DNA of 26,693 bases from a virus. Position numbers and translations under genes: made by a program. This document shows, in pieces, positions 8,893-26,693 of the stretch. The stretch is from positions 1-26,693 of the IMG/VR virus record IMGVR_UViG_3300033142_000473. One strand, 5' to 3'. Position 1 is the stretch's first letter, and each line of letters opens with the position of its first letter. The notes under the pieces are model-generated. The model had not been told where the DNA came from. It did no database searches and was given only the letters and a program-made list of their open reading frames with translations.

Positions 8893-9804
8893 ATGGCAGG
8901 ATTTACAGCGATAGCCGCAGGAGTTGGAATGGCAACCACAGCGGCAACAACAGGAGCCTCGTTCGGTCAGGCAGGCAAGATGAAACGTAAAATGCAAGAA
9001 GCTAACTTAGCGGCTGCCAAATCATTAGCAGAAGCTAGAAAAAAACTTGAGGTTAATGTTTATGATGCGTTAGCACTTCCTAAAGAATCCTATGAGCTAG
9101 AGCGAGAAGCGCTTCTTGTTCAGGGAGCCAAAGCATTACAACAAGCTACTGAGGGTTCTGCTAGAGGCGCGGCTGCTACAGCCGGCAGGATACAGCAGGG
9201 AATGACCTCGGCACAGGCACAGCAACGTGCCGCTATGGGTAAAGAGTTGTTAAGGCTAGAGGAGCTTTCAGCAACTGAGGAGGCAAGGCTTAGAGATAAA
9301 GGATTTGAGTTAGACCTTCAGGAGGCAGCAGGAGCACAGCAAGCCGCTGCTCAATATGAACAGCAGGCACAGCAAGCAAAAGCTCAAGGTGTGCAAGGAG
9401 CCATTAGTTTGGTTGGCAGTGCAGCTGAGATGGTGCCTTTGTACAGAGGCAGTGCGAAAGCACGTCAAGGTGCGTTGGGAGAAATGGAATTTAAACCTGA
9501 TGAATTTCAGAAGTTTGGTATGATTGGTCAGGCAGGTGGTTTAACAGAAGGACAATTTTCTGATTTAGATTTTGAGCAGCTAGGGGGAATGAGTCGAAAA
9601 GAATTTAAGCAATTTGAAAAATCGCTAACACCAAGCCAAACACGAATGCTATACGGAGGTACACAGTTTGGTGACCTTTATCAGGACCCATTCACATCAT
9701 CAGGATTTGGGTATTCAATGGCAGCTAAGGAAAAGGCTAAGGCTGCCAATAGTGTCGATTATGACCTATTCCAAGAGTTCTTAGAGTACAAAAAAAATCA
9801 ATAG
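8893..9804 (+). CDS. Putative internal virion protein (T7 gp14-like in style)
   Basis: A 303-residue protein, very rich in Ala and Gln. The first ~25 residues are a hydrophobic small-residue stretch (GFTAIAAGVGMATTAATTG) that could insert in a membrane. Residues ~28-170 are predicted to be a long amphipathic helical or coiled-coil region full of AQQ/QAQ repeats. The C-terminal third is more mixed. Short Ala/Gln-rich proteins with a hydrophobic N-terminus next to giant internal proteins are the usual pattern of ejected core proteins in podoviruses, so a role in the DNA-ejection conduit is a reasonable inference. No enzyme motif is visible. It begins one base after the GNAT stop and ends three bases before the next ATG. 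Confidence 0.5.
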   Translation: MAGFTAIAAGVGMATTAATTGASFGQAGKMKRKMQEANLAAAKSLAEARKKLEVNVYDALALPKESYELEREALLVQGAKALQQATEGSARGAAATAGRIQQGMTSAQAQQRAAMGKELLRLEELSATEEARLRDKGFELDLQEAAGAQQAAAQYEQQAQQAKAQGVQGAISLVGSAAEMVPLYRGSAKARQGALGEMEFKPDEFQKFGMIGQAGGLTEGQFSDLDFEQLGGMSRKEFKQFEKSLTPSQTRMLYGGTQFGDLYQDPFTSSGFGYSMAAKEKAKAANSVDYDLFQEFLEYKKNQ

Positions 9805-9807
9805 TAA

Positions 9808-11700
9808 ATGAGTTATTTTAAGTACGCACAGCGGCAGATAGATAGTCAAATAAATTGGGCGGAGATTGGAAAGACAATGTCCGAAACTCTCAAAGAGGAG
9901 GCTGCCGGTCGTGAACGACTTAAGTCAGAAATTGATGAGGCTTCAAGGCAGTATGGAGAGACATTGTCTGATGCGCCTACAGGCGATTATGATGCAGGAA
10001 ATACATTTGCGTTGGACTACGCATCAAGTGCTCAGGAATACAGACTTATGCAGGACCGTCTTCTTAGGTCGGGTCAGCTTAATCTAAGAGATTATAATAT
10101 AGGCAGGCAGAACGTGATGGACGGAACAGAAAATTTGTTCGCGCTTTCTCGAGAATACCAAGAAGAATACAAAACCAAAATGGAAAGATGGGATGGAGAC
10201 GAATCATCCTTTCGTGAGGTTTGGGAGATGGAGCAGGCTGAGGGGCTTGGAAACTTACGTGCATCAAGAGGATATATTAATCCTACTAATGGAACGGTAA
10301 GCGTAGGTAAGATGGTTAAAGATACTGAGACGGGGATTATGAAGCTCAGTCAAGACCCTAACGACTTCGCTACGGTTAATGACCTGAGACAAAGGCTCAA
10401 GCAAAAGTATGACAGGTTTGATGTCAATGAAGCAGCTAGCGAGGCTGTAGACCAACTTGGTGTTATAGAGACAGATGTTTTTAATAGAGCATCTAGCAGA
10501 GGTAAAATACATACTATTGTTACTACTGTAGATGCCAAGCAAGGTGACTACACCTTAGAGGATGAGGAGTTTGTGGCAACTTACAAAGAGTGGGAGGATA
10601 TTCAGGTTTCAGCTATGATGGTAAACGCTAACGATGTTGCATCTGTTCTTACTGACTATAAGCTTACTGCTCCTAATGGCGAGCGATATACTTTTACTCA
10701 CGACAAGGATGAGTTTGATGCGCAGGGTGAGGATGGTAATCTTATATTTTTAGACCAAAGTGAAAACGCTTCAGGCGCACCTGTGTTTAACGAGGCGCAG
10801 GAGCAAGCTGTTCAGGAGACCCTTAAGATTAGCATACGTGCTATGATTGATGAGAAGGTACAAGTTAAGACGGCAGGCTCAGACCAACAGAGAACAAATA
10901 GAACAAGTGATGCACAGCGGAGCAAAGATGATACTCAAAAAGGAGCTATGACCAATTGGGATAAGCTTTATTGGGGTAACGAGGCTGAAAAATTAGCAGC
11001 AGCAAACTATATTAGCTCTATCAACGAGGACATAGAAAAAATAGAAAATATAGAGGGTGGTATAGTAATTGTCTATACCGATGACAGTGGTAGACCGACT
11101 AGGCAACTATTTTTTGGAGAGAATCAACGACAGTGGGCTGAAAACATAAACTTTGGATTACCCGAAAAAATGATTATAGAAAATGTTAATGATGTTTATA
11201 AAGCTGCAGGCATTGAAGGTAATAGAGAGGTAAGTAAAGCAGGATTCATATCTGCAGGTGTTGCTAAGGTTACTGCCGAGGAAGCAAAAGGCAACTTCGA
11301 AGATGTTTATAAAGATAAAGCTGCTGCAGACTTTAATATATCTGCTGCTGCTGACGGTATTGATATGAGTTTAGGATACAATAAATCCGAAGAAAAGGCA
11401 ATAAAGCAGTTCAAAGAACAGGCGAGCAATATATATGGTATTGAGTTAGTTGATTACAGCGTTAGACCGTTTAAAGGTAGCTTTGCCTTTGGCTCAGGAT
11501 ATACAGTCACAATTGATGGTCAGGATTATGATGTTAAGATTGACGGGACAAAAGATGATTTAATGGCTGACCTTGAGCCAATTAAGAGAGTTTTAATTAA
11601 CAAAGGATTTAGTATGCAAAATATGACATTGGAAGAAGATGAACAAGATAAATTTGTAGACGATTACGGGGGCAGTGGAATAGATTACAGTAAAAAATAA
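9808..11700 (+). CDS. Putative internal/core virion protein, unknown family
   Basis: A 630-residue hydrophilic protein with no signal peptide or membrane segment. It is mostly helical: residues 1-140 are rich in Glu, Arg, Gln and Tyr, and ~190-225 contain a charged helical run (NDLRQRLKQKYDRF). The C-terminal part is mixed (YGIELVDYSVRPFKGSFAFG). I recognise no catalytic motif. Its place between the Ala/Gln-rich protein and the giant polyvalent protein suggests it is a virion component carried or ejected with them. It starts three bases after the previous stop (ATAGTAAATG) and ends six bases before the next ATG. The product name is inferred from context only. Confidence 0.45.
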   Translation: MSYFKYAQRQIDSQINWAEIGKTMSETLKEEAAGRERLKSEIDEASRQYGETLSDAPTGDYDAGNTFALDYASSAQEYRLMQDRLLRSGQLNLRDYNIGRQNVMDGTENLFALSREYQEEYKTKMERWDGDESSFREVWEMEQAEGLGNLRASRGYINPTNGTVSVGKMVKDTETGIMKLSQDPNDFATVNDLRQRLKQKYDRFDVNEAASEAVDQLGVIETDVFNRASSRGKIHTIVTTVDAKQGDYTLEDEEFVATYKEWEDIQVSAMMVNANDVASVLTDYKLTAPNGERYTFTHDKDEFDAQGEDGNLIFLDQSENASGAPVFNEAQEQAVQETLKISIRAMIDEKVQVKTAGSDQQRTNRTSDAQRSKDDTQKGAMTNWDKLYWGNEAEKLAAANYISSINEDIEKIENIEGGIVIVYTDDSGRPTRQLFFGENQRQWAENINFGLPEKMIIENVNDVYKAAGIEGNREVSKAGFISAGVAKVTAEEAKGNFEDVYKDKAAADFNISAAADGIDMSLGYNKSEEKAIKQFKEQASNIYGIELVDYSVRPFKGSFAFGSGYTVTIDGQDYDVKIDGTKDDLMADLEPIKRVLINKGFSMQNMTLEEDEQDKFVDDYGGSGIDYSKK

Positions 11701-11706
11701 TTTATA

Positions 11707-12036
11707 ATGGACGAACAGGTAATACAGGATTTATACAATCGAGCAAGAGGCAAGGGTTATCTAAAAGGCATAGAGGATTTTAAAAATTTACTCGCTACTG
11801 ACGATGAGGTAGTTGATGACAACTATAGATATGTAAAGTCTAAGGGATATACAAAATCTCGAGATGAATTTTTAATTCTCGTTGGTGTTAGCGGTCAGAC
11901 TCAACCAACAGTTACTGAGACTGTAACCGAGACTGTTGTGGAGGAGCCAAAAAAAAAGAAGATATCGCTACGGAATCTCCTTCCACTTTGGAAGAGCAAC
12001 CTTCTTTATCGGAGTTACAGCAGACTGATGACCTAA
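11707..12036 (+). CDS. N-terminal segment of the giant polyvalent protein (zero-frame ORF)
   Basis: A 109-residue ORF. Residues 1-60 hold two copies of a short helical motif: LYNRARGKGYLKGIEDFKNL, then NYRYVKSKGYTKSRDEFLIL. After that comes an acidic linker (TVTETVTETVVEEPKKK). From residue 85 the composition changes abruptly to a Leu/Arg-rich tail (ISLRNLLPLW...), which reads like out-of-frame sequence. The change falls exactly at an A9 run. Reading on in the -1 frame gives EDIATESPSTLEEQP, which continues the acidic linker style and enters the 3314-residue ORF. I therefore interpret residues 1-84 as the true N-terminus of that giant protein, and the 109-residue form as the unshifted by-product, if it is made. 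Confidence 0.6.
   Translation: MDEQVIQDLYNRARGKGYLKGIEDFKNLLATDDEVVDDNYRYVKSKGYTKSRDEFLILVGVSGQTQPTVTETVTETVVEEPKKKKISLRNLLPLWKSNLLYRSYSRLMT
11728..11886 (+). repeat. Tandem KGY helical repeat (two copies, protein level)
   Basis: Codes for residues ~8-60 of the 109-residue ORF. Copy 1 is DLYNRARGKGYLKGIEDFKN and copy 2 is DNYRYVKSKGYTKSRDEFLI. They share the pattern Y-x4-(G/S)KGY-x-K-x2-(E/D)-(D/E)-F. Similar paired motifs, as I recall, open other large phage proteins in Bacteroidota. Confidence 0.55.
11940..11996 (+). promoter_or_regulatory. Candidate programmed -1 ribosomal frameshift site
   Basis: The heptamer A_AAA_AAG (11952-11958) is phased correctly on the zero frame of the upstream ORF (codons CCA AAA AAA AAG) for a -1 slip into the giant ORF. 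A GGAGGAG stretch (11940-11946) ends 5 nt before the heptamer and could act like the internal SD of dnaX frameshifting. Downstream, CTTCCA-CTT-TGGAAG (11980-11994) forms a 6-bp stem, extendable with one bulged C to CTC/GAG (11977-11996), but about 21 nt from the heptamer, which is farther than usual. The giant frame has a stop at 11916-11918 and no ATG until 12087, so the join must fall between 11919 and the zero-frame stop at 12034. A miscounted A9 run is the alternative explanation. Confidence 0.6.
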
Positions 12037-15000
12037 CCGCTAGGAGGGAGGCGGCACAGCAAAGAGATGCTTCATTCCAAAGCGATATGGATAGGGCGCG
12101 AGAGATTACAATGCCGTCCGCGACTCAGCCTATCCCCGAGGACGTGGCTCAGTTGCCTACGCGTTTTGTGACTGCACCTGAGGGAGTGGAGGCAACGGTA
12201 GAATTGCCTGATGACTACGTAAGTCCTAGGCAACAAGAAGTTGAAGATGCTAAACAGAGGATTCAAAGTATATATGGTGTCGTACCCCAAGACCCTAGAG
12301 AAGCAGGATACGTAAGACCAAAAGTTGAGTTTATTGCTCAAGGCTCCGCAGGCTCACCTTATGGAAGTCCTGTAGGCATTCTCGATAAGAGAAGAAAGGA
12401 AGCCTATGAAAAACACTTAAATCAAATCAAAGCTGACGAAGCTTACCTGAAACTTTTACAAGAGCAAGAAGCTAAATATTTAGCACAACAACAGGCATCT
12501 GACAAAGCAGAACAACAAGAAATAATTAATGCAGCTCTTGATGGAAGAGCAGAAGTGTTGGAGTCGGAAGAGTTTGCTGATGCTTTATCTCAGTCTAATA
12601 TTAGGTCAACTAAAATGAAAGAGGCTGAGGCTGCTGATTATTTTAACGGATTGTACGGGAAGTATGGATTTACTTTTCGACCTGTAAACCTTATAAAAAA
12701 TCAGCTTGAGGTGTCAATCCTTCTTTCAGATGGCAGTGTACGAACAGAAAGAATAAACGTCAATGCAAGCTACGATGACGTAGCTCAAGCGAATGCTGAC
12801 AAAGTAAAAGAGTTTGTCAAGAAATATGCCTATAAACCTGATGAGGCTAGAGAACTTATGGAAAGTAATTCCGTTCAATCAGCACTCAGGGTAAAAGACA
12901 TTAGGCCTGTGGCTAGAATCAACGAGGATGGAACGCAATCAACGGTTCTTATGCAGTCCGCTACCATAGACGGAAAAAATGTTGCATTCCCTACGCTGTT
13001 CCCAAAGACCACATCTCGCAATGAAATGACAAACAATCCTAAAGATTGGATGGAGCTAGAAGGGATGGAGGCTTATCAAGAAGCATTAAGCCGTGGAGAG
13101 GTATTTGCTTTTGAGACGGAGGAGCAAGCTTCAAATTTTGCCAAAGGCTCTTGGAAAGATATTAATACAGTTGATGCTGAGGCTGATAGATTCTTTGACG
13201 ATAAAGGATATGACTACCTTACAGTAAAAGACCAATTTGAAGAATACGAGGATGCTCGTGATAGAGTAGCTTTTATCAATCAGGTGCAAAGCAAAGACAA
13301 TAAAAAGTTTAGAATATCTGATTTTACTGATGAGGAAAGGAAACTGTACGACGATTACATTGACGAATTTTATGACCCACGCACAGGACAACTAAGAAAT
13401 GATATAGATGATGTTGAAGCTTCTTTGCAGAAAACTGTAGATGGATTAGTTGACACTTACCTTGACTCGGATATACAACGAGTTGTAGAAGACTTTGATG
13501 CTTTTACTCAAAAGAAGATTGACAAAGTCATTAGCGAGTCAGTGAAACAAAACAATGCATCTTTATATATGGCGGCTGAATTAAATGCTGTTTCAATGCA
13601 GGAGCTTGGCGTTCCAATTGCTGAAGTAAATAACTTCACGCCATTAACCCCTGAGCAGAAGGAAATGAAAGAGGTGTTGCAAACAGCTTATTTAGGTACT
13701 CAAGATGCTATGACTATGGCATCAAATAAATATGAGGTTGCCAAAACTTATTTAAGCTCAAAGTTTGACGAGCAAATGGGCAGTGATTTAACTGAGGGGT
13801 GGGGGTCTATTGGCGTTCAAATAAGCGAGGGATGGAATAGAGGTCAAGCAGGCGATGAGATACTAAAGGTTGCTATGGGGTTATCAGGTGATTCAACTGA
13901 AGAAATAGCTCAAAACTTTGTTGACTATATGCAAAGCACAAACTCAGGAGAAACATCTAGAGAGATGAATCGTTGGAATAGGTCCAAGACATATAGGGAA
14001 ATGTGGGATGCTTTTAGTGATAACCCAATGGCTCTATCTGTGGGACTTGCAGCCAATAGTATATCTCAGATGCTACCGTATGGAATTAAAATTATTCCTA
14101 CAGCAATGGCTACAGGAACTGCTACAGGAGCAGCTATAGGAAGTGTGGTACCCGGTGCGGGTACTGCTGCGGGGGCAGCCTCGGGATTTGGCTATGGTAC
14201 AATGACAGGATTTTCTGCGACAAGCTTTGCTTTGGAGTACACCAATGCTGTTATGGATGCCATGAAAGAACAAGGCTACGATATAATGAATGCCAACGAT
14301 GTGGCAAAAGCATTGCAGGATGATAAGGTTTGGGATATAGGTAGAGAGCGTGGTTTAAAAAGAGGTATACCTATTGCTGTAGTTGATTTGCTATCTCAAG
14401 GATTAGCAGGGCGAGTATTCAGTGTAGGGAAAACATCAGCAAGAGGAACACGACTTGCCGTGCAAGCGGGGGAGCGTGTGGTATTTGACCCTTTGATGGA
14501 AGGTGCAGGTGAGTATTTAGCACAAGTTAATGTGGGTGACGATGTCAATGTAAAAGAGATATTGGCAGAGATGATGGGTGGATTTGGTAATAACGCACCT
14601 GCCGCTGCGATTAACACAGCTCTTGACCTGCGTAGTAAAAACAACGTAGATATTGCCAATGATTTAACTACGATTGAAGGGTTGAATGCTGAGGTTAAAG
14701 GAGTATTCTCGCCATCCCCTACTAGAGTTTCTAATTGGGCGAACAACATGCAGGACCTTGGTCAAATATCAAAAGAACAAAATCAAAGAATACAGGAGAA
14801 CTTAGGCGTTAGACAAGATGCTCTGAACTTGTTGGAGGTAAACGATAGCCCAATCTCTAATGATGTGCTAAATAGGACTATGAATCTTATGACAGCTAGA
14901 AATGAGCTTGAATCTACACCTGAAAGAAAAAAAGTTTTTGCCGGGAAACTAAAAGAAATTAACGAGGAGCTTGCAGAATTGGCTGAAAACAAAACTGTAA

Positions 15001-18000
15001 GGACCTCTAATAATCAGACTAACCTACAGGGAGTGGGACGTGCTCTATCAAGACCAACAACTGCCACAGATGTAAGGCGGTCTCAGCAATCTGTATATAA
15101 AATAGATGGCAAGAAGGTAGATAGAAGAAAGTTTTTAAGCAGGCTTAACGATATGTCTGTTGAGCAACTTAGAAATACTTCTCTAGAGGTAAAGAACGAC
15201 GAACAAGTTTTTGATTTATTAACTGAAAAAATAGGAACCGATGCCATTCAAGAGCAAGAAGCAGGAACAGTATCTGATGTTGAACAAGCCGGAGATATAT
15301 CGGAAGTGGAGACGGAAGTACGGGACAGTAAGCCAAAACAAACCGAAGAACTTGAGACCGAGGAAAAGGCTGAGGTAGTAGAGGCACCTGCTCCTATTAA
15401 ACACACATCAAAAGATAGAGCAGCATTTAAGAACAACAAGCTAGCCCCCGAAAGACTTGATGGTATTATTTCATTTGTCCTTGACAAGGAGGCTAACAAT
15501 GAGGTGCTCAATGATTTTGAGCAAACAGTGTTAGAAGAAAACAAAAGCAGGGTTGATGAGATAGTGTCCTTAAAGACACTTCAAGAAGAGGCAACTGACC
15601 TTGAGCAGGCTTTAGGATTGGAGCAAGCTCCTGCACCAAAACCGGAAACTACCACTGAGGAGGCTGCTCCTCCAGCGGTCACTGAGATTGTTAATATTTA
15701 TGAGGGTATAGCTAGAGACGGTAATAAAAGACAGGTTGAGGTAACAAACACAGAAGAAGGTGTTGTTGAGGCTCGACTAATTCTTGAGGATGGACAACGT
15801 TCTCAAGTTGTTGCATCAGGCAAGGGAGATATAAGTGAAGGTTCTGTATATAAAGGATTGTTTGACGAGTCCCAACCAATTGAACTTATAGCTACTCAAG
15901 AAAAAACCGAAGCAGCACCTGTCACTGAAGAGACCACCGTTACCGAGACCACCACTGAGGTAGCACCCGTAGAAGAAGCCGCACCTGCCGTAACCGAAGA
16001 GGTGGCTATAACTGAGGAGGAAGCACCTGTGGCTGAGGAGACAGAAGATGTTAAACAGAAAAGACTTGAGTTTCAAAGCGACATAGAGGTTGCAGAGGAC
16101 AGAATACAAGAAGCGAATGAAGAGATTGCTGCTGAAAAGTCTAACCTTAAAGAGGAGATTGCAAGGATTAACGATGAAATAAAAAAGGTTAGGGCAAACA
16201 AAAAACTTAACCGTGAGCAAAAGGCTGATGCAATCGAAGACCTTAAAGCACAAAAGGAAGATGCAAAGGATGATAATGCAGGGCTCATTGAAAACTATAG
16301 AGCAGAAATAAAAGATTATAAGGCTGACATCAGAAAGGCTAAAAGAGGTTTAGATAAGTTAGATAAAAAACCTAAGGTTGATTTCAAAAGCGAGGAGCAG
16401 GTCGTTGAGGATGTGGATGAAGTAGCATCTATCACAACTAAGATAAACGAGCTACAGTCCGGAAACACAGAAACGAATCTTGATGAAACACCTAGCGAGG
16501 GAACTATTGATGTTGATGAGCTTAATGAAAGAACAGATACCCCACTAAAATCCATTGACACTTTAGAGATAATTAACGGTGTACCCGTAGTGTTCACGAT
16601 ATCTGACCAATTGCGTACAGGTGTTGTTGTTAATCCCAACACAGGAAGAAGCATTGACAACTTGAAGGGGGGTATGGGATTCACAGGTACACAAGGTCAT
16701 CAAGGATATGCTTGGGCTAACACATCCCGAGAAGAAGCAGGAGCTTTATATGATAAAGCCAAGGCTGTGTATGAAGCAAACAAAGAAGCCTTAGAAGATT
16801 TTTGGGCAAAGAATCCTGAGTATAATAATCACGTTCCAATGCCTGTGGTAAAGATGGGTGAAGGTTCTATACTTTCTAACGAGGCAACATTTAGAGTACT
16901 AGCCGACAATCTTAAAGCTGTTCCTGAAGCAAACAGGAAGAACGCAGTCAATGCACTTAAAGCTGATATACGAGATAACATTAAAAAATTAAAGGCACTT
17001 TCTAAAGAGAAAGGTAAAAAGCCTCTGACAATAAAGAATTACAACAAAAAGATTTCTAATCTACAGAGCAGTTTAAAGCTTATAGAAGATAGTAATCCTA
17101 CTTTGATTGACGATATAGTGTCTGAAGATTTTGTAAAATCACTTAGTCTGCCTGCAAGAAGAGAGTTGTTAGAAAGAATAGCTTCAGGAAGCCCCAACAG
17201 AGCAGGGACAAAGGTCACTCCCGGCAAGCCCACCAAGCCAACGGTATTGGCGTTGCTTAAGGGTATGGACTTAAAAGAATCTGCCAAGCTTTTTCATCTT
17301 GGAGAGATAACAGATATTATAACCGAACCTCAACTAGCCAATATACCTCAGCGAAATATTATTGCGCTACAGGCAGTTGATATAGGAGTAGATAGAGAGG
17401 GTGCTATATTAGAAACAACGCATCCCAACTATCCTTTCGGTACTAAAGGAAAGTCTATCGGTGTATTAAAAAATCCTGTATCTGTAGTTAGAGCATTCCC
17501 TGTAGCATACCAAAATGCTATAGCTGATTTGGTAAAGCGGGAAGGACAACGAAAAAAAGTTACCAAGTCTTTAATAGATAGAACCAAGAAAGCAGACAGA
17601 GCCAAGCTCGGAAAAGTGGGAGACCTCGCCCCATCAAGTGTTGGTACTATATTGACACAAACACTAGGTGTACAAAACGGATTGCCAAACGCAGAGTTTG
17701 TAGGAGCTATTAGTGAGGGTAATGTAGACAATGTATTTAAGCTAACATCTTTTATGAACATTGCGTTTCCTCAGACCAACATTAGCACGTCGCAGACAAC
17801 CTTTGATACAATTATGCAGAGGGATGATGTCAGGCAGTTCAAGAAGGGAGGGCAAATTATATATGGTGTTACCGTAGATGGTGATGTATATATCAATCCG
17901 CAAGTTCATAATTCAGAGTCATCAATGTTCAACACTTCTATCCATGAGATGGGGCACGTTTGGACAGACTATCTTATGACTACCAAAAAAGGTAGAGAAA

Positions 18001-21000
18001 TATACAACAAGGGTGTTACCCTTGTAAAGCAAACTCAAGAGTATCAGAGACAGCTTAAGAAGTTTGATGGCGATACAGAGGCAGCGGCTCGTGAGACGAT
18101 GGCTATATTGATTGGTAACAAAGGACAGAAGATTGCTGATGCATCACTGAAGTCTAAGTTTACTGAGTGGCTCTTAGGAATGTGGAACTACATCAAGTCT
18201 CAGTTCAAACAAACAAGTAAGCTGACTGCTGAGGAAATACAAAACCTTACGCTTGATGAGTTCCTTGGCTCTGCACTTGCAGATATATTCTCAGGTAAAA
18301 AGATAAAGCTTACCGATGCTCAGATGAAGAAGATGAAGAATCCTGAGGTGGCGTTTAAGGCTGACCTTACTATGAATGAAATCATAGAACAGGGTCGTGA
18401 GATGGGATTCTCTGATGCATCTATAAAGCAGGTTCTTTTAGGTAGAGGGTTTGGATTGTCTGCCATCAATGAAGCCATGATATACAAAGTCGATACTAAT
18501 AAGACTATGCCAAAGGCTTTTCAAAGAATTGAGGGTGGCATATTAGAGGCGGCTAAACTATATAATGATGTCAATCAAAAGCTTAATGCGTTTGCTTACG
18601 ACACAAAAGGCAAAAGAATTAAAAGCTATTCGGATATAAGACAAAAGGCTCAAGAGCTAATCAAGGCTCATCCTGTTTTCAAAAAACAAAGTGAGCAGGT
18701 TCAGACCGAGGTGTTAGTTGCTTTTGATAGAGAGCTTGGGTATACAAGTAACCGACCCCTTCAACGGCAGATGCAAGAGAAGAGAATGGCACTGAGACAG
18801 CGAATAGTAGGAAGACAAAACTTAAAGGCTGCACAGATTGAATTGAAAAATTATATCAGACAGAATCTGCCTAGGTCTAAAAATTATTCTCAGGCTAAAA
18901 TCAATCGTCTGATAAAAGCAGTGACGGATATCAGAACCATTGACGACTACAGAAAGCAGGTCGAGAAAGTTGATTCCATTATTGAAACACAGCGTGCAAT
19001 GATGAAGCGAGGTGCTATCTCAGAAATTTTCAAGATAGTAAAGGATAAGTCGAGACCAAGAATCCAATCAGGAAAGAACAGACCCAAGGGTATTGATGCT
19101 GTAGGGCAGGTGGTATTCAAAAACATAAAGCAGGTTATGGATGCTGTGATGTTAAAGGATGCCGATGAGAGACAAGCTGCCTTGGATGACATACGCTTAA
19201 AGTTAGATGCCAATAGAAATGTAATAGACAACGCACTATCATTAGCTCAGAAAGGAGAAAACCTAACACTCAGAGAAGAGGAGCTTGTGCAACTACAGTT
19301 AGCATACGACACTTTTGCTGACTTAGATACTATGACCTTGGAAGAAGTGCAAGCTCTTCTTGAAGATGTAAAAATAACTAGAAAAGAATCTATACTCAGG
19401 CTCGATGCAAGAAGGGAGCAGAGGGTGGCTGAGGCTGAAGCAGTAGCTGAACAGACAAACGAACAAATAAAAGAAACTAATCCTGAGCTTTACAATGAGG
19501 ATGGTCAGCCTAAAGGACAGGAGCAACTAAATAGTGAGCAAGATATTATCAAGCAAGATTTTTCTGCTAGAGGTATTCTCAAAAAAGTATTTGAAAAAAT
19601 ATCTAAAGACTTACTTGGTAGGAGAGAAGGTTCCATTACCAACTTCAAGAATATCTTAACACACTTAGGTACAGTTACAAACTTCTTAGACAACAAGCCG
19701 AAAGGTTTGACCATATTCACTGACAAAGTTTATAAAAAACTAAATAGGATGGGTGAGGTGTTTCTTCAAAACCTAAGAACAGAGAAAAGAGGTATAGATG
19801 AAATAGCAAAAGAGCTAGGATTTAAGAAGGGGATGCAGAGTGTCGAAGAAAAACTTAACACACTGTTTGGATTAAGCTTAACAGGAGTGCCAAAGAATAT
19901 TACTATTCAAGTTAAGAGTACCAAGACAGGTGCTAAGTTTGGCAAACCATTAAATGCAAATCAGCTACTAAGGATATATGCCTTGAGTAAGAATCCTGTG
20001 CAGGCTGCAAAGCTAGAGAAACAAGGAATAGATGCTGATGTGTTGGCTGATATAAAAACAAAACTTGGTCCTGAGCTAACAGCATTTGCTGATAAGATGG
20101 TTGAGTACTTAAGCACAGACTACTTCAATGGCGTGAACTCTGTATACCGTCAGGCTAATGGTGTAAACTTGGGGTACATAGAAAACTATTTCCCTACTAA
20201 AACAATAATCACAGACAACAAAGCCTTTTCTGATATGGTTGAGGCGGGTGATTTTATTGGAGTGTTTTCTGCTGAAACTTCTCCGGCATTTAAGAATAGG
20301 GTTGACGTGACGAGTGATGTTAATCTGAGCGAGGCAACATTTACAGGAACGCTTATGAATCACATAGAAGCAATGGAGCGATACAAAGCCTATGCTACGG
20401 GGGTTCAAAAACTAAATGCATTCTTCAGAATAGAATCCGTCAACACACTAATGGAGCAGGCAGGAGTAAAGCAATTAGTTATGCAATTGGTTAACTCCGA
20501 AATTAATCCTCAGTCAGCAGCTAACGCTCTTGGTGTTAACAGAGGAGGAACTATTGCTGAGAAATTTCAAACTAAGTTTACATCTTTTGTTCTTTCGTTC
20601 AAGCCTATTCAGGTTCTAAAGCAAGCAACATCTTTTTACAATGCGAAGGAGGACTACAATTATTTTTCTCCTAATAGTAAGATACCTTCTCCTATTAGAA
20701 GCGCAGTAGAACACGTTATGTTTCCTGTTGATATGGCAGGCGTGTTGTTGGGGATGGTGGCCTTTGATATGTTTGGTTTCAATGGTCCACTCAGCAAGGC
20801 TCGAGAGCTGTCAGCATCATTAGACGATAGATTCACTAAAGGGTTAGAGGGAGATGTATATACAATTGAATCAGGTAGTCAGACACTAAAGCAGGTGGGT
20901 AAAAAGTCAGGCTTATACCAAAGACTAATTAGAGGTATTAAGAAAGCGGGAGGTTCGTTCACAGTTCTTGGAGATGTTGCAGGTGTCATGGGATACTATG

Positions 21001-21932
21001 TAAACTACAAGAGAAACATTGCTAATGGGATGACACAAGCCGAGGCTTTGGATGCATTCAATGAGTATGATGCAACGCAACAGCCAAGGAAAACAACCAA
21101 CAGAGCACCTATTCAGTTGAGAACTGACTTCGGTTCTAGAATGGTAACTATGTTTGGTAGTGTCGCATTACTTCAACTAAATAAAGTAATGTCGTCTGCC
21201 ACAAATATTAGGAGGAGCATTTCTCAAGGAAAGATTCCTAGCAAGAAAGATACAAGAGCATTGGCCATCAACCTCGCAATGGCAAACGTACTATTTACAG
21301 CGGCATCCAACATAGCTTTACTTACTAAAGGTGATGACGATGATAAAGCAGCGTTCAGAAGAAAGCTTATAGATGCTGCATTAGGTCTTAATCTTTTATA
21401 TCAAATACCGTTCATAGGTATAGCAGTTGAGGAAGGGGTGGCTTATTACAGAGGAGAAAAGAAATCTGTTGATGTCGGGACCAATCCAATATCACCAATC
21501 TTTCGTAAGATTAAGAAAGGAATCAAGGATAACCCTGACAAATTTTTTCAAAAAGCAATAACTCCAATTATAGAGATTATAGTAGGATTTCAATCTGACC
21601 CTATAATCGGTCTGTACAATGTAGTTCAGGAAGGAATGTTTGGAGATACCACCTCTGAAGAATATTATGAAAATGTATATGATGCGCTTGGAATTTCTCC
21701 ATCATATCGACCGGGATATGGAGATGACAAAGGAGAGCTAGAAGGTGTAATGCCTATAGAAGGAGTAGATTTTTCCAAACCTTCTGAGCTCAAAAGATAC
21801 GACCCTGACCTATATGAAAAAGTCTATGGTAAAAAGGATGAGGTTAAAAAACAAATAAAAGATACGAGAGCTGAAGCCTTGGAGCGAGCAGGATACAAAG
21901 AAGTAGGTGGCAAGTTATATCCAATAGATTAA
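11988..21932 (+). CDS. Giant polyvalent virion protein with HEMGH metallopeptidase domain
   Basis: A 3314-residue open frame from a TTG at 11988; probably part of a ~3408-residue frameshift product. Residues below count from that TTG. Around 325-395 is a DGKNVAFPTLFP...ATFETEEQA-like phage module. Residues ~685-750 are Gly/Ala-rich and could insert in membrane. Acidic Thr/Glu/Pro linkers lie at ~1120-1345, and a coiled coil at ~1360-1465. Residues ~1555-1640 hold GGMGFTGTQG and VKMGEGSILSNEATF, as in large polyvalent proteins. A zinc metallopeptidase has HEMGH (H1986-H1990) with likely third ligand E2036 in RETMAILIGNKG. Around 2725-2745 is GVNLGYIENYFP. The C-terminal 400 residues hold hydrophobic helices (~2914, ~3092, ~3130). 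Such proteins are thought to be ejected with phage DNA, where the peptidase may cleave host or phage proteins. No polymerase motif is visible. Confidence 0.75.
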   Translation: MEEQPSLSELQQTDDLTARREAAQQRDASFQSDMDRAREITMPSATQPIPEDVAQLPTRFVTAPEGVEATVELPDDYVSPRQQEVEDAKQRIQSIYGVVPQDPREAGYVRPKVEFIAQGSAGSPYGSPVGILDKRRKEAYEKHLNQIKADEAYLKLLQEQEAKYLAQQQASDKAEQQEIINAALDGRAEVLESEEFADALSQSNIRSTKMKEAEAADYFNGLYGKYGFTFRPVNLIKNQLEVSILLSDGSVRTERINVNASYDDVAQANADKVKEFVKKYAYKPDEARELMESNSVQSALRVKDIRPVARINEDGTQSTVLMQSATIDGKNVAFPTLFPKTTSRNEMTNNPKDWMELEGMEAYQEALSRGEVFAFETEEQASNFAKGSWKDINTVDAEADRFFDDKGYDYLTVKDQFEEYEDARDRVAFINQVQSKDNKKFRISDFTDEERKLYDDYIDEFYDPRTGQLRNDIDDVEASLQKTVDGLVDTYLDSDIQRVVEDFDAFTQKKIDKVISESVKQNNASLYMAAELNAVSMQELGVPIAEVNNFTPLTPEQKEMKEVLQTAYLGTQDAMTMASNKYEVAKTYLSSKFDEQMGSDLTEGWGSIGVQISEGWNRGQAGDEILKVAMGLSGDSTEEIAQNFVDYMQSTNSGETSREMNRWNRSKTYREMWDAFSDNPMALSVGLAANSISQMLPYGIKIIPTAMATGTATGAAIGSVVPGAGTAAGAASGFGYGTMTGFSATSFALEYTNAVMDAMKEQGYDIMNANDVAKALQDDKVWDIGRERGLKRGIPIAVVDLLSQGLAGRVFSVGKTSARGTRLAVQAGERVVFDPLMEGAGEYLAQVNVGDDVNVKEILAEMMGGFGNNAPAAAINTALDLRSKNNVDIANDLTTIEGLNAEVKGVFSPSPTRVSNWANNMQDLGQISKEQNQRIQENLGVRQDALNLLEVNDSPISNDVLNRTMNLMTARNELESTPERKKVFAGKLKEINEELAELAENKTVRTSNNQTNLQGVGRALSRPTTATDVRRSQQSVYKIDGKKVDRRKFLSRLNDMSVEQLRNTSLEVKNDEQVFDLLTEKIGTDAIQEQEAGTVSDVEQAGDISEVETEVRDSKPKQTEELETEEKAEVVEAPAPIKHTSKDRAAFKNNKLAPERLDGIISFVLDKEANNEVLNDFEQTVLEENKSRVDEIVSLKTLQEEATDLEQALGLEQAPAPKPETTTEEAAPPAVTEIVNIYEGIARDGNKRQVEVTNTEEGVVEARLILEDGQRSQVVASGKGDISEGSVYKGLFDESQPIELIATQEKTEAAPVTEETTVTETTTEVAPVEEAAPAVTEEVAITEEEAPVAEETEDVKQKRLEFQSDIEVAEDRIQEANEEIAAEKSNLKEEIARINDEIKKVRANKKLNREQKADAIEDLKAQKEDAKDDNAGLIENYRAEIKDYKADIRKAKRGLDKLDKKPKVDFKSEEQVVEDVDEVASITTKINELQSGNTETNLDETPSEGTIDVDELNERTDTPLKSIDTLEIINGVPVVFTISDQLRTGVVVNPNTGRSIDNLKGGMGFTGTQGHQGYAWANTSREEAGALYDKAKAVYEANKEALEDFWAKNPEYNNHVPMPVVKMGEGSILSNEATFRVLADNLKAVPEANRKNAVNALKADIRDNIKKLKALSKEKGKKPLTIKNYNKKISNLQSSLKLIEDSNPTLIDDIVSEDFVKSLSLPARRELLERIASGSPNRAGTKVTPGKPTKPTVLALLKGMDLKESAKLFHLGEITDIITEPQLANIPQRNIIALQAVDIGVDREGAILETTHPNYPFGTKGKSIGVLKNPVSVVRAFPVAYQNAIADLVKREGQRKKVTKSLIDRTKKADRAKLGKVGDLAPSSVGTILTQTLGVQNGLPNAEFVGAISEGNVDNVFKLTSFMNIAFPQTNISTSQTTFDTIMQRDDVRQFKKGGQIIYGVTVDGDVYINPQVHNSESSMFNTSIHEMGHVWTDYLMTTKKGREIYNKGVTLVKQTQEYQRQLKKFDGDTEAAARETMAILIGNKGQKIADASLKSKFTEWLLGMWNYIKSQFKQTSKLTAEEIQNLTLDEFLGSALADIFSGKKIKLTDAQMKKMKNPEVAFKADLTMNEIIEQGREMGFSDASIKQVLLGRGFGLSAINEAMIYKVDTNKTMPKAFQRIEGGILEAAKLYNDVNQKLNAFAYDTKGKRIKSYSDIRQKAQELIKAHPVFKKQSEQVQTEVLVAFDRELGYTSNRPLQRQMQEKRMALRQRIVGRQNLKAAQIELKNYIRQNLPRSKNYSQAKINRLIKAVTDIRTIDDYRKQVEKVDSIIETQRAMMKRGAISEIFKIVKDKSRPRIQSGKNRPKGIDAVGQVVFKNIKQVMDAVMLKDADERQAALDDIRLKLDANRNVIDNALSLAQKGENLTLREEELVQLQLAYDTFADLDTMTLEEVQALLEDVKITRKESILRLDARREQRVAEAEAVAEQTNEQIKETNPELYNEDGQPKGQEQLNSEQDIIKQDFSARGILKKVFEKISKDLLGRREGSITNFKNILTHLGTVTNFLDNKPKGLTIFTDKVYKKLNRMGEVFLQNLRTEKRGIDEIAKELGFKKGMQSVEEKLNTLFGLSLTGVPKNITIQVKSTKTGAKFGKPLNANQLLRIYALSKNPVQAAKLEKQGIDADVLADIKTKLGPELTAFADKMVEYLSTDYFNGVNSVYRQANGVNLGYIENYFPTKTIITDNKAFSDMVEAGDFIGVFSAETSPAFKNRVDVTSDVNLSEATFTGTLMNHIEAMERYKAYATGVQKLNAFFRIESVNTLMEQAGVKQLVMQLVNSEINPQSAANALGVNRGGTIAEKFQTKFTSFVLSFKPIQVLKQATSFYNAKEDYNYFSPNSKIPSPIRSAVEHVMFPVDMAGVLLGMVAFDMFGFNGPLSKARELSASLDDRFTKGLEGDVYTIESGSQTLKQVGKKSGLYQRLIRGIKKAGGSFTVLGDVAGVMGYYVNYKRNIANGMTQAEALDAFNEYDATQQPRKTTNRAPIQLRTDFGSRMVTMFGSVALLQLNKVMSSATNIRRSISQGKIPSKKDTRALAINLAMANVLFTAASNIALLTKGDDDDKAAFRRKLIDAALGLNLLYQIPFIGIAVEEGVAYYRGEKKSVDVGTNPISPIFRKIKKGIKDNPDKFFQKAITPIIEIIVGFQSDPIIGLYNVVQEGMFGDTTSEEYYENVYDALGISPSYRPGYGDDKGELEGVMPIEGVDFSKPSELKRYDPDLYEKVYGKKDEVKKQIKDTRAEALERAGYKEVGGKLYPID

Positions 21933-21958
21933 GAGTAGTGTCCTCGAGGACACTACTC
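21933..21958. terminator. Perfect 26-bp palindrome, likely bidirectional terminator
   Basis: GAGTAGTGTCCTC is followed directly by its exact reverse complement, GAGGACACTACTC. The RNA would fold into an 11-bp stem with a TCGA loop on either strand. It begins on the base after the stop codon of the giant gene and contains the stop codon (21953-21955) of the opposing nuclease gene. The position between two converging operons fits a shared terminator. There is no T-run on either side, so it is not a canonical intrinsic terminator. Confidence 0.7.
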
Positions 21959-22372
21959 CTCGTAGTACTTGTAGTATCTGAAGCCCTTCTGCTTGTCGTA
22001 GTATATCATCAGCTCCTCATCGTTGACCGCACCCTCGCGTGGCTTTCTGCCTCCCCATTTGACCGAGCCCTTTATCTCTGTTGGTTTACCGTAGATGATG
22101 CCATCATCGCAAGCCCATATAATAACAGGGTTCAACCTCTTGTCGCACAGCTTGACAACCTTACGTGCAGCGATAGGTAGTGGGTATGCACTTGACATAC
22201 TACGTAGTCTACCCTTGACCTCGGCATAGGCTATAAGGTTTCCCTTGTCGTCGAACACACGGTAGTCAATGTCGTTAGGGTCAAGCTTCTTGTACGTGCC
22301 GTTGAACTTGCTCGTGAACTTCTCTATCGCCTTGCGCTCTCTCTGTAGGTCTGATGCTTTTTCGAATCTCAT
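21953..22372 (-). CDS. PD-(D/E)XK-like nuclease
   Basis: A 139-residue protein. It shows a restriction-endonuclease-fold pattern: helix with E17 (RERKAIEKF), D36 in NDIDYRVFD, then a strand with E51-V-K53 in AYAEVKGR, followed by basic helix residues (AARKVVKL). In this fold the Asp, Glu and Lys bind Mg2+ and cut a phosphodiester bond. A strand reading NPVIIWACDDG and a basic patch (GGRKPREG) follow. The role could be Holliday-junction resolution, recombination or host-DNA degradation. It is the last gene of the leftward operon and overlaps the HNH gene stop in ATGA style. Its stop lies in the terminator palindrome. The fold is read by eye; substrate unknown. Confidence 0.6.
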   Translation of the reverse strand: MRFEKASDLQRERKAIEKFTSKFNGTYKKLDPNDIDYRVFDDKGNLIAYAEVKGRLRSMSSAYPLPIAARKVVKLCDKRLNPVIIWACDDGIIYGKPTEIKGSVKWGGRKPREGAVNDEELMIYYDKQKGFRYYKYYEE

Positions 22373-22740
22373 TTATCGTGTACTTCTACGTGACATCGTG
22401 CGCAAAGCAGTACGCACTTATCAACCTCCTTGCTTAGTTTTTCTATACTGTGTCCTGTTTTTGCTACGTTACCAATCGAGAACTCCTTGTTGCCCTGCGG
22501 GTGGTGGAAGTGTAATGCCCGTGGCGTAAAGGTGTTGTGTGTTTCTTTTGAGTATCCGCACATCTCGCACGCCCTTGACATCTTGTAGTCAGTAATCCAT
22601 TTGCTTGTTTCCTGCCTGCGCTTTTTCTTTCTTTCAGAGCAACACGCAATACAGTCGCCACGTCTTTTACCATTCTTCCTCAGATAGAACTTGTCCTCTG
22701 ACTTGTGTTGACCACATACAGTGCAGACCTTAGAGCTCAT
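22369..22740 (-). CDS. HNH endonuclease with N-terminal zinc finger
   Basis: A 123-residue protein with two metal sites. An N-terminal zinc ribbon is formed by C6xxC9 and C30xxC33. The HNH part has C58-x2-C61, then the beta-turn LHFHHPQGNKEF with H79 and H80, and finally C113-x2-C116-H117 and H121 in LLCARCHVEVH. A basic helix (SERKKKRRQ) between the two should contact DNA. HNH enzymes make nicks or double-strand breaks using one metal ion. It is either a free-standing homing endonuclease or a phage recombination or packaging nuclease. Being within an overlapping operon (11 nt with the gene before it, 4 nt with the next) favours a working phage function over a recent homing insertion. Confidence 0.8.
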   Translation of the reverse strand: MSSKVCTVCGQHKSEDKFYLRKNGKRRGDCIACCSERKKKRRQETSKWITDYKMSRACEMCGYSKETHNTFTPRALHFHHPQGNKEFSIGNVAKTGHSIEKLSKEVDKCVLLCARCHVEVHDK

Positions 22741-22918
22741 CCTTGATTGATTCCTCTAGGTTATCAAGCACCTCCCTCATCCTCCTTATGTTCTTGTGCA
22801 GTTCATCGTACTCCTCGTCCATAAGTGATTCGTATAGTTCAGCACTAGCATCATAGATACTGTCCATGACATTATTGACACGGACAATCCTAAGTGTATC
22901 TAGTGCATCTATCTTCAT
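22730..22918 (-). CDS. Small helical hypothetical protein
   Basis: A 62-residue acidic protein predicted to be mostly helix or coiled coil (IYDASAELYESLMDEEYDEL, then IRRMREVLDNLEESIKDEL). No family recognised. It starts inside the stop of the gene before it (ATGA overlap, 4 nt) and overlaps the HNH gene by 11 nt, so it is almost certainly translated as part of the operon. A dimeric helical accessory role is possible but not shown. Confidence 0.6.
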   Translation of the reverse strand: MKIDALDTLRIVRVNNVMDSIYDASAELYESLMDEEYDELHKNIRRMREVLDNLEESIKDEL

Positions 22919-23154
22919 GACGTGGAGTCCATAGCCAATAGAAAGGTCTGCCCCATCTTTTGGTCTATTGTTTTGATTGCTTTGTAAATGCGCCTTGAGT
23001 TCTTGGTTACCTCAGACTTTTCTTTCTTGGTTGAGTCGATGCCTAGATTAGTGTACATATCACAGTCCATTCTTAATAACTCATCAATCTTCCTGCGGTC
23101 AGACCACGTCTTGAACTCTAGTATTTTCTCAATGTCTTTTATTGTATAGTCCAT
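22915..23154 (-). CDS. Small hypothetical protein
   Basis: A 79-residue charged protein, helical by composition. The segment RRIYKAIKTIDQKMGQTFLL near the C-terminus is the most family-like part, but I cannot name the family. It overlaps the DnaA-like gene before it by 26 nt and the next gene by ATGA, consistent with coupled translation. Confidence 0.6.
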   Translation of the reverse strand: MDYTIKDIEKILEFKTWSDRRKIDELLRMDCDMYTNLGIDSTKKEKSEVTKNSRRIYKAIKTIDQKMGQTFLLAMDSTS

Positions 23155-23674
23155 TTAATGTGTGATTTAATTTCTTGCCAACTTCATCTAGTGTTTGTTT
23201 ATCCAATATGTTGTCGTGTACACGCAGTACATCTAGTATCGGAAAGTATTTTTCATATCGACTTCTCTCAAGCATCAACTCGTTAATGTCTAATGTAAGT
23301 TTTTTATTCTGCTTCTCCAAATCTATGGCATCACCAACCAATCTCATCCGTGATACAAACTGAAACGGATGCTCGTTGTTTCTGTCGTAGTAATCAGACT
23401 TAACCATCTCAAAACTTTCTTGTAGGTCTTGGTCGTATGACACCAAGTCCTCGAACTGTCTATACCCATTGATGACTGTGGCATGGTTCTTATCTACGCT
23501 TCGCGCGATTGATGTCCACGAGTAATTCATATCCCTGAGTAGGGCATAGTAAATCATTCGTCCCGTTATGACCTCCGCCTTCCTGCTCTTGTCTGCTATG
23601 TCAACATCTAATATCTTCTCTATTGATTCAATCAGTGCTTCCTTCGTCTTCTTGTTTACTTCTCTCAATTTCAT
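23129..23674 (-). CDS. DnaA domain IV-like DNA-binding protein
   Basis: A 181-residue protein. Residues ~29-75 read KSRKAEVITGRMIYYALLRD, followed by SWTSIARSVDKNHATVINGY. This matches the helix-turn-helix of DnaA domain IV, where K/R-x-x-E-I, ARQIAMYL and GRDHTTVLHA are the conserved points. The AAA+ ATPase part of DnaA is absent. A helical tail with a likely coiled coil follows (~115-150). In DnaA this domain recognises DnaA boxes. Here it could recruit the phage primase-helicase to an origin, act as a decoy for host DnaA, or regulate transcription. The start at 23674 overlaps the previous gene by 47 nt; a later ATG at residue 40 would cut the domain, so the long form is preferred. Confidence 0.7.
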   Translation of the reverse strand: MKLREVNKKTKEALIESIEKILDVDIADKSRKAEVITGRMIYYALLRDMNYSWTSIARSVDKNHATVINGYRQFEDLVSYDQDLQESFEMVKSDYYDRNNEHPFQFVSRMRLVGDAIDLEKQNKKLTLDINELMLERSRYEKYFPILDVLRVHDNILDKQTLDEVGKKLNHTLNGLYNKRH

Positions 23675-24002
23675 TTAATTTAAGTGTTTTGTTTTCTAAA
23701 ATATAATCTAAGTATTCGTCAACATCAATCTCTTTGATGTCTAAAAATATTGGTGCCTCATCGGGTTGCTTCAGATATTCCAACTCAAAGTAGTACGGCT
23801 CGTCTGTCGTGATGCATACACCCCCAACGTTCTGTGTCCACCCTACTGCTGATGGGAGAGATGCAAAGTTTTTGTCAATGAGATTGGCGATGTGAATACC
23901 TATCTGCCTCGGAGCTTTCCTTAGCTTCTGAATAAACCAATCATCTACCTCATAAAAACTTTCCTCACGCATCTCCTCTGTATACTTCTGTTTTGAATCC
24001 AT
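23628..24002 (-). CDS. Hypothetical operon protein
   Basis: A 124-residue acidic protein. The N-terminal half contains FIQKLRKAPRQIGIHIANLI and the C-terminal half is Asp/Glu-rich (IKEIDVDEYLDYI). No catalytic motif or membrane segment. The start is uncertain: ATG 24002 overlaps the VRR-NUC gene by 38 nt, while ATG 23972 (MREESFYE) overlaps it by only 8 nt and follows AGAGGAG directly. The function is unknown; its place between the VRR-NUC and DnaA-like genes suggests a DNA-metabolism accessory role. Confidence 0.6.
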   Translation of the reverse strand: MDSKQKYTEEMREESFYEVDDWFIQKLRKAPRQIGIHIANLIDKNFASLPSAVGWTQNVGGVCITTDEPYYFELEYLKQPDEAPIFLDIKEIDVDEYLDYILENKTLKLNEIERSKQEDEGSTD

Positions 24003-24222
24003 ATTGTTTAAGTTCTTTTAGTCTGTACTCCTGCAACTTTGATACCTTTCCATTTGGTTTCTTAACCTCGCTAAACAAAACGTCAGCTCCTCTTGGTATA
24101 GCTATCAAGTCAGGTATGCCGTTCTTGTTTGTCTTGATTAGCTTAACAACGTAGTACCCATCTTCCTCAAGTTGCTTTATCCTTTTGCTCTGTATCTGTT
24201 GCTCGGTCATTGTTGTAATCAA
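23965..24222 (-). CDS. VRR-NUC domain nuclease
   Basis: An 85-residue protein that is a single VRR-NUC domain. It begins with the helix QQIQSKRIKQLEEDGYYVVK, has D38 in GIPDLI, then E52-V-K54 in FSEVKKPNGK, and a helix with Q64 (SKLQEYRLKEL). These are the Mg2+-binding points of the PD-(D/E)XK superfamily branch found in phages and in FAN1. Stand-alone phage forms of this size probably act as structure-specific DNA nucleases, for example on branched intermediates. The start at 24222 is chosen; ATG 24210 (MTEQQIQ) is equally possible and would reduce the overlap with the membrane-protein gene from 56 to 44 nt. Confidence 0.85.
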   Translation of the reverse strand: MITTMTEQQIQSKRIKQLEEDGYYVVKLIKTNKNGIPDLIAIPRGADVLFSEVKKPNGKVSKLQEYRLKELKQYGFKTEVYRGDA

Positions 24223-24382
24223 TTAAGAATCCAATGGCTACGATAACATTCATTCCAACAGATGAAATCAATTCTATCGCATCGTGAAAGTTATGGATTG
24301 ATAAGTGTACGTGACCCACAATCCAAAACGGAATCGCTAAGTTTTGACTAATCCAAACAACCAAGAACTTAATGAACCTCAC
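24167..24382 (-). CDS. Small two-helix membrane protein, GTG start
   Basis: A 71-residue protein if translation begins at GTG 24382. It has two hydrophobic segments: ~3-24 (FLVVWISQNLAIPFW...) and ~35-55 (IELISSVGMNVIVAIGFLI). A charged polar tail follows (DYNNDRATDTEQKDKAT). The frame is open up to an ATG at 24496, but that longer form would be read antisense-free yet entirely over the 90-residue gene in another frame, and its extra residues look unnatural. The GTG lies 16 nt after the previous stop, behind an AT-rich leader. Two-helix proteins with a charged tail are compatible with a holin or other membrane effector, but no lysis gene is nearby in the operon, so the role is open. Confidence 0.5.
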   Translation of the reverse strand: MRFIKFLVVWISQNLAIPFWIVGHVHLSIHNFHDAIELISSVGMNVIVAIGFLIDYNNDRATDTEQKDKAT

Positions 24383-24398
24383 TGTATAAATATAAAGA

Positions 24399-24671
24399 TT
24401 ACTTTTCGTAATCCTCCAACAATTCTTCAATGGCATCCCGCGTTTCTCCGAACCTATCCTCAGAGTAGATTGGTGTACCCTCTCCAACGTATGCACCCCA
24501 CACGTTGTACTCTAGATGCTCAACCGCCTCCTCGTAGCTAAGACCCTCCTTCATTATAATAAGAACCATCTTGTGCTTTGAGTATACAACCCGTGGCACA
24601 TTCTCCCACTCTCTTGACAGCCCTACTATGGCATCGTTAAATCCGTCTGCAAATAATGTATAATCCTTCAT
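24399..24671 (-). CDS. Conserved small phage protein, unknown function
   Basis: A 90-residue acidic protein. The pattern FNDAIVGL...VVYSKHKMVLIIMKEGLS followed by YEEAVEHLEYNVWGAYVGEG and TPIY matches a small family I have seen often in phage replication regions, without known function. It is soluble and mixed alpha/beta. Its ATG overlaps the helicase stop in ATGA style (4 nt), so it is translationally coupled to the helicase and may work with it. Confidence 0.65.
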   Translation of the reverse strand: MKDYTLFADGFNDAIVGLSREWENVPRVVYSKHKMVLIIMKEGLSYEEAVEHLEYNVWGAYVGEGTPIYSEDRFGETRDAIEELLEDYEK

Positions 24672-25894: not shown

Positions 25895-26124
25895 TTCTCT
25901 TCGTAAATTTTAATTGAATACATTATATTTTCTCTTACTATATCGTGGCTTGGGTCATTCCATTTGAATACCTCAATGAACTCTGCCTTTCGTCCTCTAC
26001 CAATCTTCTTTTGAAGCTTAGTAAACATAACATTGCGTAATTCATACAGATGAATGAGATATTCGCAGTCATCATACCCCAAGTCGTTAGACAGTAAGTT
26101 TTGTTTGTGTGTTGACTTCATCAT
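25861..26124 (-). CDS. Hypothetical operon protein
   Basis: An 87-residue protein, helical and charged, with KLQKKIGRGRKAEFIEVFKW as a basic stretch that could touch nucleic acid. A C-terminal polar tail (CSSSDNTNQT) lies in the overlap with the helicase gene. No family recognised. It overlaps the primase-helicase gene by 38 nt; a second ATG at 26121 is also possible. Context suggests a replication accessory. Confidence 0.5.
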   Translation of the reverse strand: MMKSTHKQNLLSNDLGYDDCEYLIHLYELRNVMFTKLQKKIGRGRKAEFIEVFKWNDPSHDIVRENIMYSIKIYEEKCSSSDNTNQT

Positions 26125-26693
26125 TTCTTTTTATTCTCATCCACTTGCCTGCCATATCGCGCCCCTCCTGTGGTCTTGCACCCGACTTGAACGTAGCGTA
26201 TGCCGACATCCATTTGTTGAAACGTATACGACTGATGGTAAGCTTTGCCTTCGGTCCATAGTCGGGATACTGCTCAATAAATTCCATATAGGCGTTCTGC
26301 AAATGTATCTTGGTATCGACCTTTAGTAAATGGTTTTCGTCTGAGCCATTGATAAGACCACACCACTCGATGAAGTCGTGCGATGTCTCTGCCGATAGCT
26401 GACGAACCTTGAGATTAACAAACTTACTTTCAATCAAGCCCGTGCTTAAGTATCCTTGAAGACACCCTATCATATAATTATCAAACGCACACCACTCATC
26501 ATCATTCCAATCGCTGAAGAACAGCTGACCAAACTCATCCATCGGTGTGTAGTTCTTGTTGTAGTGCTGATGTAACTCAAGCTCCCACTTCCTCCTTGCG
26601 AATGAATTACCTGTACCCTTGATGGCGTAGTTGGTTGTGATAGCAATCTTAGGTGACTTGCTGAATGGTATCTTGATTGCATCCTTGTTCTTC
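26087..26693 (-). CDS. C-terminal part of a phage primase/SF3-type helicase (runs off window)
   Basis: Open to the window edge, with 201 residues visible; the N-terminus lies outside. The ATG at 26542 is internal, because the upstream codons read IPFSKSPKIAITTNYAIKGT, then GNSFARRKWELELHQ without a stop. TTNY fits sensor 1 of SF3/D5-like or DUF5906-type helicases, and the RRKWELEL segment fits the following arginine-finger region. The C-terminal ~110 residues look like the winged-helix end of phage primase-helicases (SRIRFNKWM, then GKWMRIKRN). Such proteins unwind DNA at the replication fork and often carry a primase at the N-terminus, which cannot be seen here. It heads the visible part of the leftward operon. 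Confidence 0.75.
   Translation of the reverse strand, partial: KNKDAIKIPFSKSPKIAITTNYAIKGTGNSFARRKWELELHQHYNKNYTPMDEFGQLFFSDWNDDEWCAFDNYMIGCLQGYLSTGLIESKFVNLKVRQLSAETSHDFIEWCGLINGSDENHLLKVDTKIHLQNAYMEFIEQYPDYGPKAKLTISRIRFNKWMSAYATFKSGARPQEGRDMAGKWMRIKRNDEVNTQTKLTV

Follow-up and report, generated by a model that had tools for sequence, protein, structure and literature searches.

In a viral DNA stretch of 26,693 nucleotides (hereafter the window), an ORF of 109 residues (11707-12036) passes through a run of nine adenines, and an overlapping giant frame, which is closed by a TGA at 11916-11918, is open from 11919 to 21932. The question raised by this locus is how the two frames belong together and what part the run plays between them. 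A first-pass annotation had proposed that a -1 frameshift at an A_AAA_AAG heptamer joins the short ORF to the giant gene; the ORF, the A9 run, the in-phase heptamer and the giant-frame stop at 11916 were all found as it described them. Comparison with related phages suggests that the giant gene of a group of podoviruses opens with a conserved element for programmed slippage, from which an unslipped giant protein and a slipped short protein would be made. The probability of this reading is placed at about 0.85.

The junction in the window and in related phages

The run at the junction (Table 1) is the sole run of nine or more As in the window. The 0-frame codons there are CCA AAA AAA AAG AAG, and a GGAGGAG is found at 11940-11946. 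The N-terminal module consists of two repeats of ~30 residues, predicted to be helical, DLYNRARGKGYLKGIEDFKNLLATDDEV and DNYRYVKSKGYTKSRDEFLILVG, followed by a Thr/Glu linker, and the linker in the giant frame is KKKEDIATESPSTLEEQP. Together with the module, the giant protein of the window has about 3,400 aa. Relative to the ATG of the window ORF, the giant frame is -1 and the tail frame (RRYRYGISFHFGRATFFIGVTAD) is +1; judged by its frames, the ORF as assembled encodes neither the giant nor the short product. Further along the giant protein, an HEMGH sequence (HExxH) at 17943-17957 might indicate a metalloprotease domain.

Table 1. Positions of the junction features and of the two preceding genes in the window.
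Feature	Position	Strand	Remark
Second gene upstream, of a virion structural family (PHROG 13764)	8893..9804	+	
Gene immediately upstream, PHROG 35506 (unknown), anchor for finding relatives	9808..11700	+	
N-terminal module, ~80 aa, common to the giant and the predicted short product	11707..11946	+	Same module opens the giant ORF in relatives
A9 run, putative slip site, then G; one base under the family A10	11949..11957	+	Family run lengths
A_AAA_AAG heptamer, in phase for -1	11952..11958	+	Not itself a conserved feature
Tail frame of the predicted short product (giant frame minus 1), RRYRYGISFHFGRATFFIGVTAD-stop	11957..12028	+	Window version of RYGIxFGRWFFGxxR
Giant frame past the run, beginning EDIATESPST... 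and reaching its stop after 3324 aa	11958..21932	+	Single fused ORF in relatives
Own C-terminus of the 109-aa ORF, KISLRNLLPLWKSNLLYRSYSRLMT	11959..12036	+	Matches neither conserved frame

A podovirus record obtained from spring water, MW202828.1, has one gene of 3859 aa whose beginning is matched by residues 1-60 of the window ORF. Further relatives were recruited from IMG/VR through the window genes at 8893-9804 and 9808-11700, while the first 900 residues of the giant, used as a direct query against viral contigs, recovered no relatives. One unbroken giant ORF opening with the module was found in nearly all relatives (319-3859 aa, median ~2200), including L002, L004 and L006-L020 except L017; the broken-frame exceptions are L017 and L028. 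The N-terminal part of the 109-residue ORF and the giant are therefore one gene, as had been suspected, since they are fused in MW202828 and in nearly all of the IMG/VR relatives. The first-pass annotation had set an intact single ORF and a conserved slip site against each other as the outcomes that would decide the matter; the homologues combine a single uninterrupted ORF with a conserved slip site.

Several further observations were made on the gene surroundings. The position of the window segment 8481-8891 matches that of an MW202828 gene annotated as an N-terminal acetyltransferase subunit, which stands amid virion genes. The genes past the giant (21938-26693) appear to be on the minus strand, and the GC skew reverses there too. 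In L193 (4251-12381, reverse strand) the giant is replaced by ORFs of 319, 1217, 198 and 838 aa, with the slip element sitting in the first of them (319 aa). The hosts are probably Bacteroidota because the ring proteins match those of Flavobacterium and Cellulophaga phages and one occurrence is in a Cytophagales MAG. A tblastn search of the INPHARED phages matched the module only to MW202828 and gave no convincing match for the tail; therefore no isolate is known to carry the element.

A -1 shift, which the first-pass annotation had regarded as necessary for the giant, would be a local matter. The A9 of the window is probably a family A10 that was misread in sequencing or assembly or that varies in a minor part of the population; this concerns the window contig alone and is compatible with a programmed slippage element. 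The sister contigs L028 (A9) and L023 (A10) share 99.77% identity across 12.9 kb, their alignment containing one gap of 1 nt, and L017 has A8 whereas L007, with 97% identity to it, has A10. Given these differences between sisters, the A9 is most simply a length error or variant. Off-frame junctions are also few (the window, L017, L028 and L225), the C-terminus of the window ORF fits neither conserved frame, and no conserved motif was found in the third frame of the relatives. With nine As the ORF runs into neither of the functional frames, and the A9 is most likely an A10 altered by one base through error or variation, although junctions in other codon phases regularly have A9. From the A9 run, slippage would still yield some giant protein.

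Conservation of the run and of a tail in the -1 frame

A run of 9-11 As near codon ~60-90 was found in nearly all relatives and in any codon phase, with A10 in 85%. Among 87 loci (the window, MW202828 and loci picked by their neighbouring genes, blind to the run), 72 have A10, 12 have A9, two have A11 and one has A8. In a tally of the neighbour-gene loci having the junction, about 113 of 117 carry at least eight As. The run of 9-11 survives changes of phase and residue, as in NNA AAA AAA AAA G and CAA AAA AAA AAG, and 9-10 As are kept even where the protein reads EKKN (L029) or EKKR (L168); KKKS was also seen. When the codons were redrawn from each locus's own usage (synonymous shuffle), a run of at least nine was expected in 9.8 of the 40 clusters, whereas all 40 have one (log10 P about -31). 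The same loci contain 58 further KKK, of which none is written AAA AAA AAA, and only one homopolymer of nine or more occurs away from the junction in 565 kb of the same genomes. The junction thus carries a conserved A/T homopolymer of about nine or more, which is one of the marks of transcriptional slippage.

Past the run, the -1 frame encodes (R)RYGIxFGRWFFGxxR followed by a stop, ~20 residues in all (median 21 aa), whereas the giant frame across the same overlap is a Ser/Thr-rich linker. In the L007-type phages the predicted peptide spanning module and tail is ...KKKRRYYGITFGTWFFGFVR. Of the 40 clusters, 20 have the tail motif in its strict form and 33 in its loose form, against 0.0005 and 0.04 expected when codons were shuffled with the giant frame kept; neither form was found in the +1 frame in any of the 40, the regular expressions having been composed after the tails were seen and applied identically to the shuffles and to the +1 frame. 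Over the motif stretch of 35 aligned junctions, the mean BLOSUM62 score is 2.66 for the tail frame, 0.74 for the giant frame and 0.62 for the third, and the lowest entropy falls on codon positions 1-2 of the tail frame, the junctions having been chosen for the loose motif, a choice that favours the tail frame. Protein-coding selection on the alternative frame, another mark of transcriptional slippage, is therefore found at the junction as well.

The breadth of the arrangement was surveyed with a phase-free DNA pattern (A9G followed by the tail motif), which matched in IMG/VR and in four contigs in GTDB genomes. At least 124 matches were found, nearly all of them with an ATG-started ORF in frame tail+1, and the complete ORFs are mostly of 1,600-3,600 aa. 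Since the pattern demands both the run and a tail-like motif, only the sets gathered through neighbouring genes are unbiased. In the merged set (clusters defined on the module at 70% identity) the tail is in the -1 frame in 178 of 183 unique junctions, in at least 110 clusters among the matches listed; this set is partly motif-selected, so that its size shows breadth and not rate. Of the remaining five junctions, two come from a different ATG frame at a locus that was in the count before, and L017, L028 and L225 make up the rest.

Run and tail were also observed to disappear together. L081 is without the run (TCTAAAGAAAAATTT) and its tail has decayed to GIAFGRCGFG followed by a stop, while L090, L287 and L305 have neither run nor tail. 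Two of the 40 clusters, L084 and L091, retain the run with no recognisable tail, and these count against the programmed slippage element. In L228 and L300 a second tail type, TNWWRKFTGWLRLFPTDF-like, follows A10 in the -1 frame, which likewise speaks against it. The run is kept, the -1 tail is conserved and the two are lost together; therefore the run is probably a programmed slippage site. Its earlier designation as a slip site is borne out to that extent, while the function given to it is not, as the giant is read unslipped in the relatives.

It might be argued that nothing is recoded here and that the run is simply Lys-Lys-Lys in AAA codons, with the tail arising incidentally from a conserved SPSxDGSL linker. 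The giant frame does read KKK-(D/E)...SPSxDGSL in many relatives. Codon use, however, fails to explain the run, its length is kept despite changes in the protein (EKKN, EKKR, KKKS), conservation in the overlap is higher for the tail frame than for the giant frame, and the shuffled giant frame almost never yields the tail. We find this explanation hardly credible.

The run could also act at the level of the genome, where replication slippage would alter its length in the DNA and switch genomes among giant, short and null forms. The differing run lengths of the sister contigs would suit such phase variation, as would L017, where the A8 natively encodes the short form with the tail; on the other hand, the giant frame is present in nearly all assemblies. 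Loss of a virion giant is expected to be harmful, which makes joint production of the two proteins the likelier case, and phase variation appears improbable to us.

Proposed slippage by the polymerase or by the ribosome

The module ahead of the run has a length of 40-90 residues in the family, and in the proposed mechanism a run of ~10 As directly after it would serve as the slip site. Normal, unslipped expression would give the giant protein. A slip of one base to the -1 frame, most likely by RNA polymerase adding one extra A, would give a product consisting of the module and a cationic Gly/aromatic tail of ~20 residues (RYGIxFGRWFFGxxR). We infer from the conservation pattern that slippage occurs and that the polymerase rather than the ribosome is responsible.

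Ribosomal -1 frameshifting on A_AAA_AAA or A_AAA_AAG would make the same two products, as a -1 frameshift and a polymerase slip reach the same frame. In bacteria A_AAA_AAG belongs to the strong shift sites, the window heptamer is in phase, and the runs of the family are long enough for either heptamer. By phase, however, seven to nine As would do for the ribosome, whereas among the matches listed the phase-2 runs of canonical junctions are A10 in 135 of 135 and never A7-A9; the phase-2 scan took runs of at least eight, and no A7 together with a tail was seen in the run-blind loci. Most relatives have NNA AAA AAA AAA G in place of the heptamer found in the window, and few junctions of the family have a heptamer ending in AAG.

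A slippery heptamer in phase is thus present, and the stimulator of a -1 frameshift site, either an upstream SD or a downstream structure, finds no support in the family. Strong SD-like 5-mers were found upstream in 7 of 41 cases against 2.9 expected, which is little enrichment. The GGAGGAG of the window, to which the first-pass annotation had ascribed a stimulating role, does exist but is not shared by the family, and the window gene starts examined have no SD. The small stem it had placed downstream was not substantiated, as no excess of downstream structure was detected in the window (z -0.45) or in the family (mean z -0.34). We consider ribosomal frameshifting to be doubtful and favour slippage of RNA polymerase, because the run is of at least nine As, is independent of phase and comes with neither SD nor structural stimulator.

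Runs of nine As or Ts are described as making bacterial RNA polymerase slip (PMC5009743). In E. coli, runs shorter than eight As gave no detected slippage, and on poly(A) a phage-type polymerase tends towards insertion (PMC6260861). Counting against a polymerase mechanism, the E. coli enzyme slipped little or not detectably on the poly(A) runs assayed, which were shorter (PMC6260861). The annotation of MW202828 contains no RNA polymerase.

Predicted products and comparison with known systems

Scans against Pfam and PHROGs gave no function for the module, and pieces of the giant gave only weak or unknown-family matches. The predicted structure of the short form of L017 has a mean pLDDT of 58.7 (low confidence), with four short helices in the module and an undefined tail. 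The module is swapped between lineages while the run and the tail stay. In L012 compared with L007 and L011, the MNEQAI.. and MPDLRQ.. module types are exchanged up to about the A-run; the exchange ends near the run, as if it also marks a recombination joint. The short protein may be a structural or assembly partner of the giant, carrying the same docking module.

Slippage that gives two products is already known. The open-access literature that was searched contains no description of the A10 slip element, of its site in a giant gene or of the hidden tail, and these three appear to be new with respect to that literature. We are inclined to regard the junction as an undescribed and widespread form of recoding, in which polymerase slippage on ~A10 at the start of a podovirus giant would give a hidden short virion or assembly protein. 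If this reading is true, the short protein has escaped notice since gene finders report the giant ORF alone. A conserved protein missing from current annotations is then predicted for a large and mostly uncultured group of environmental phages, spread over at least 110 sequence clusters. A slip signal that has no evident stimulators and a length fixed by evolution would also offer a natural experiment on run length and slippage. Errors in run length at this position make giant phage genes look split, which calls for caution and is probably the case in the window.

The gene order resembles that of the T7 core proteins gp14-gp15-gp16, with two virion genes followed by a large gene, in order only. 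By this order the gene at 8893-9804 would stand in the place of gp14, that at 9808-11700 in the place of gp15, and the giant gene where T7 has gp16, so by analogy the giant may be ejected. We know of no slippage in T7 gene 16.

Among recoded phage genes, the lambda G/GT chaperones also use one start for two products with a common N-terminal domain in a morphogenesis gene. As presented in PMC5009743, their shift is ribosomal (-1) and lengthens the product, unlike here, where the slip lies inside a podovirus giant gene and the shifted product is short; the junction accordingly does not fit the G/GT type, a small gene ahead of a tape measure gene. Transcription slippage in Shigella spa33 and mxiA likewise gives truncated products, in secretion-system genes (PMC5009743). 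The genes and hosts are different, and the portion of PMC5009743 dealing with them describes no conserved alternative tail.

Two further systems share more of the layout, as outlined in PMC5009743. In the potyvirus P3N-PIPO, polymerase slippage within a very long ORF joins its N-terminal portion to an overlapping frame that is short and conserved; there an RNA virus polymerase, another slip sequence and unrelated proteins are involved, in contrast to the A9-A11 of dsDNA phages. In dnaX of Thermus thermophilus the long product is one ORF, and transcriptional slippage on a run gives a shorter product in other frames that end soon (PMC5009743). Here, by comparison, the genes are phage virion genes, and the slipped frame would add a conserved tail of ~20 residues rather than any stop.
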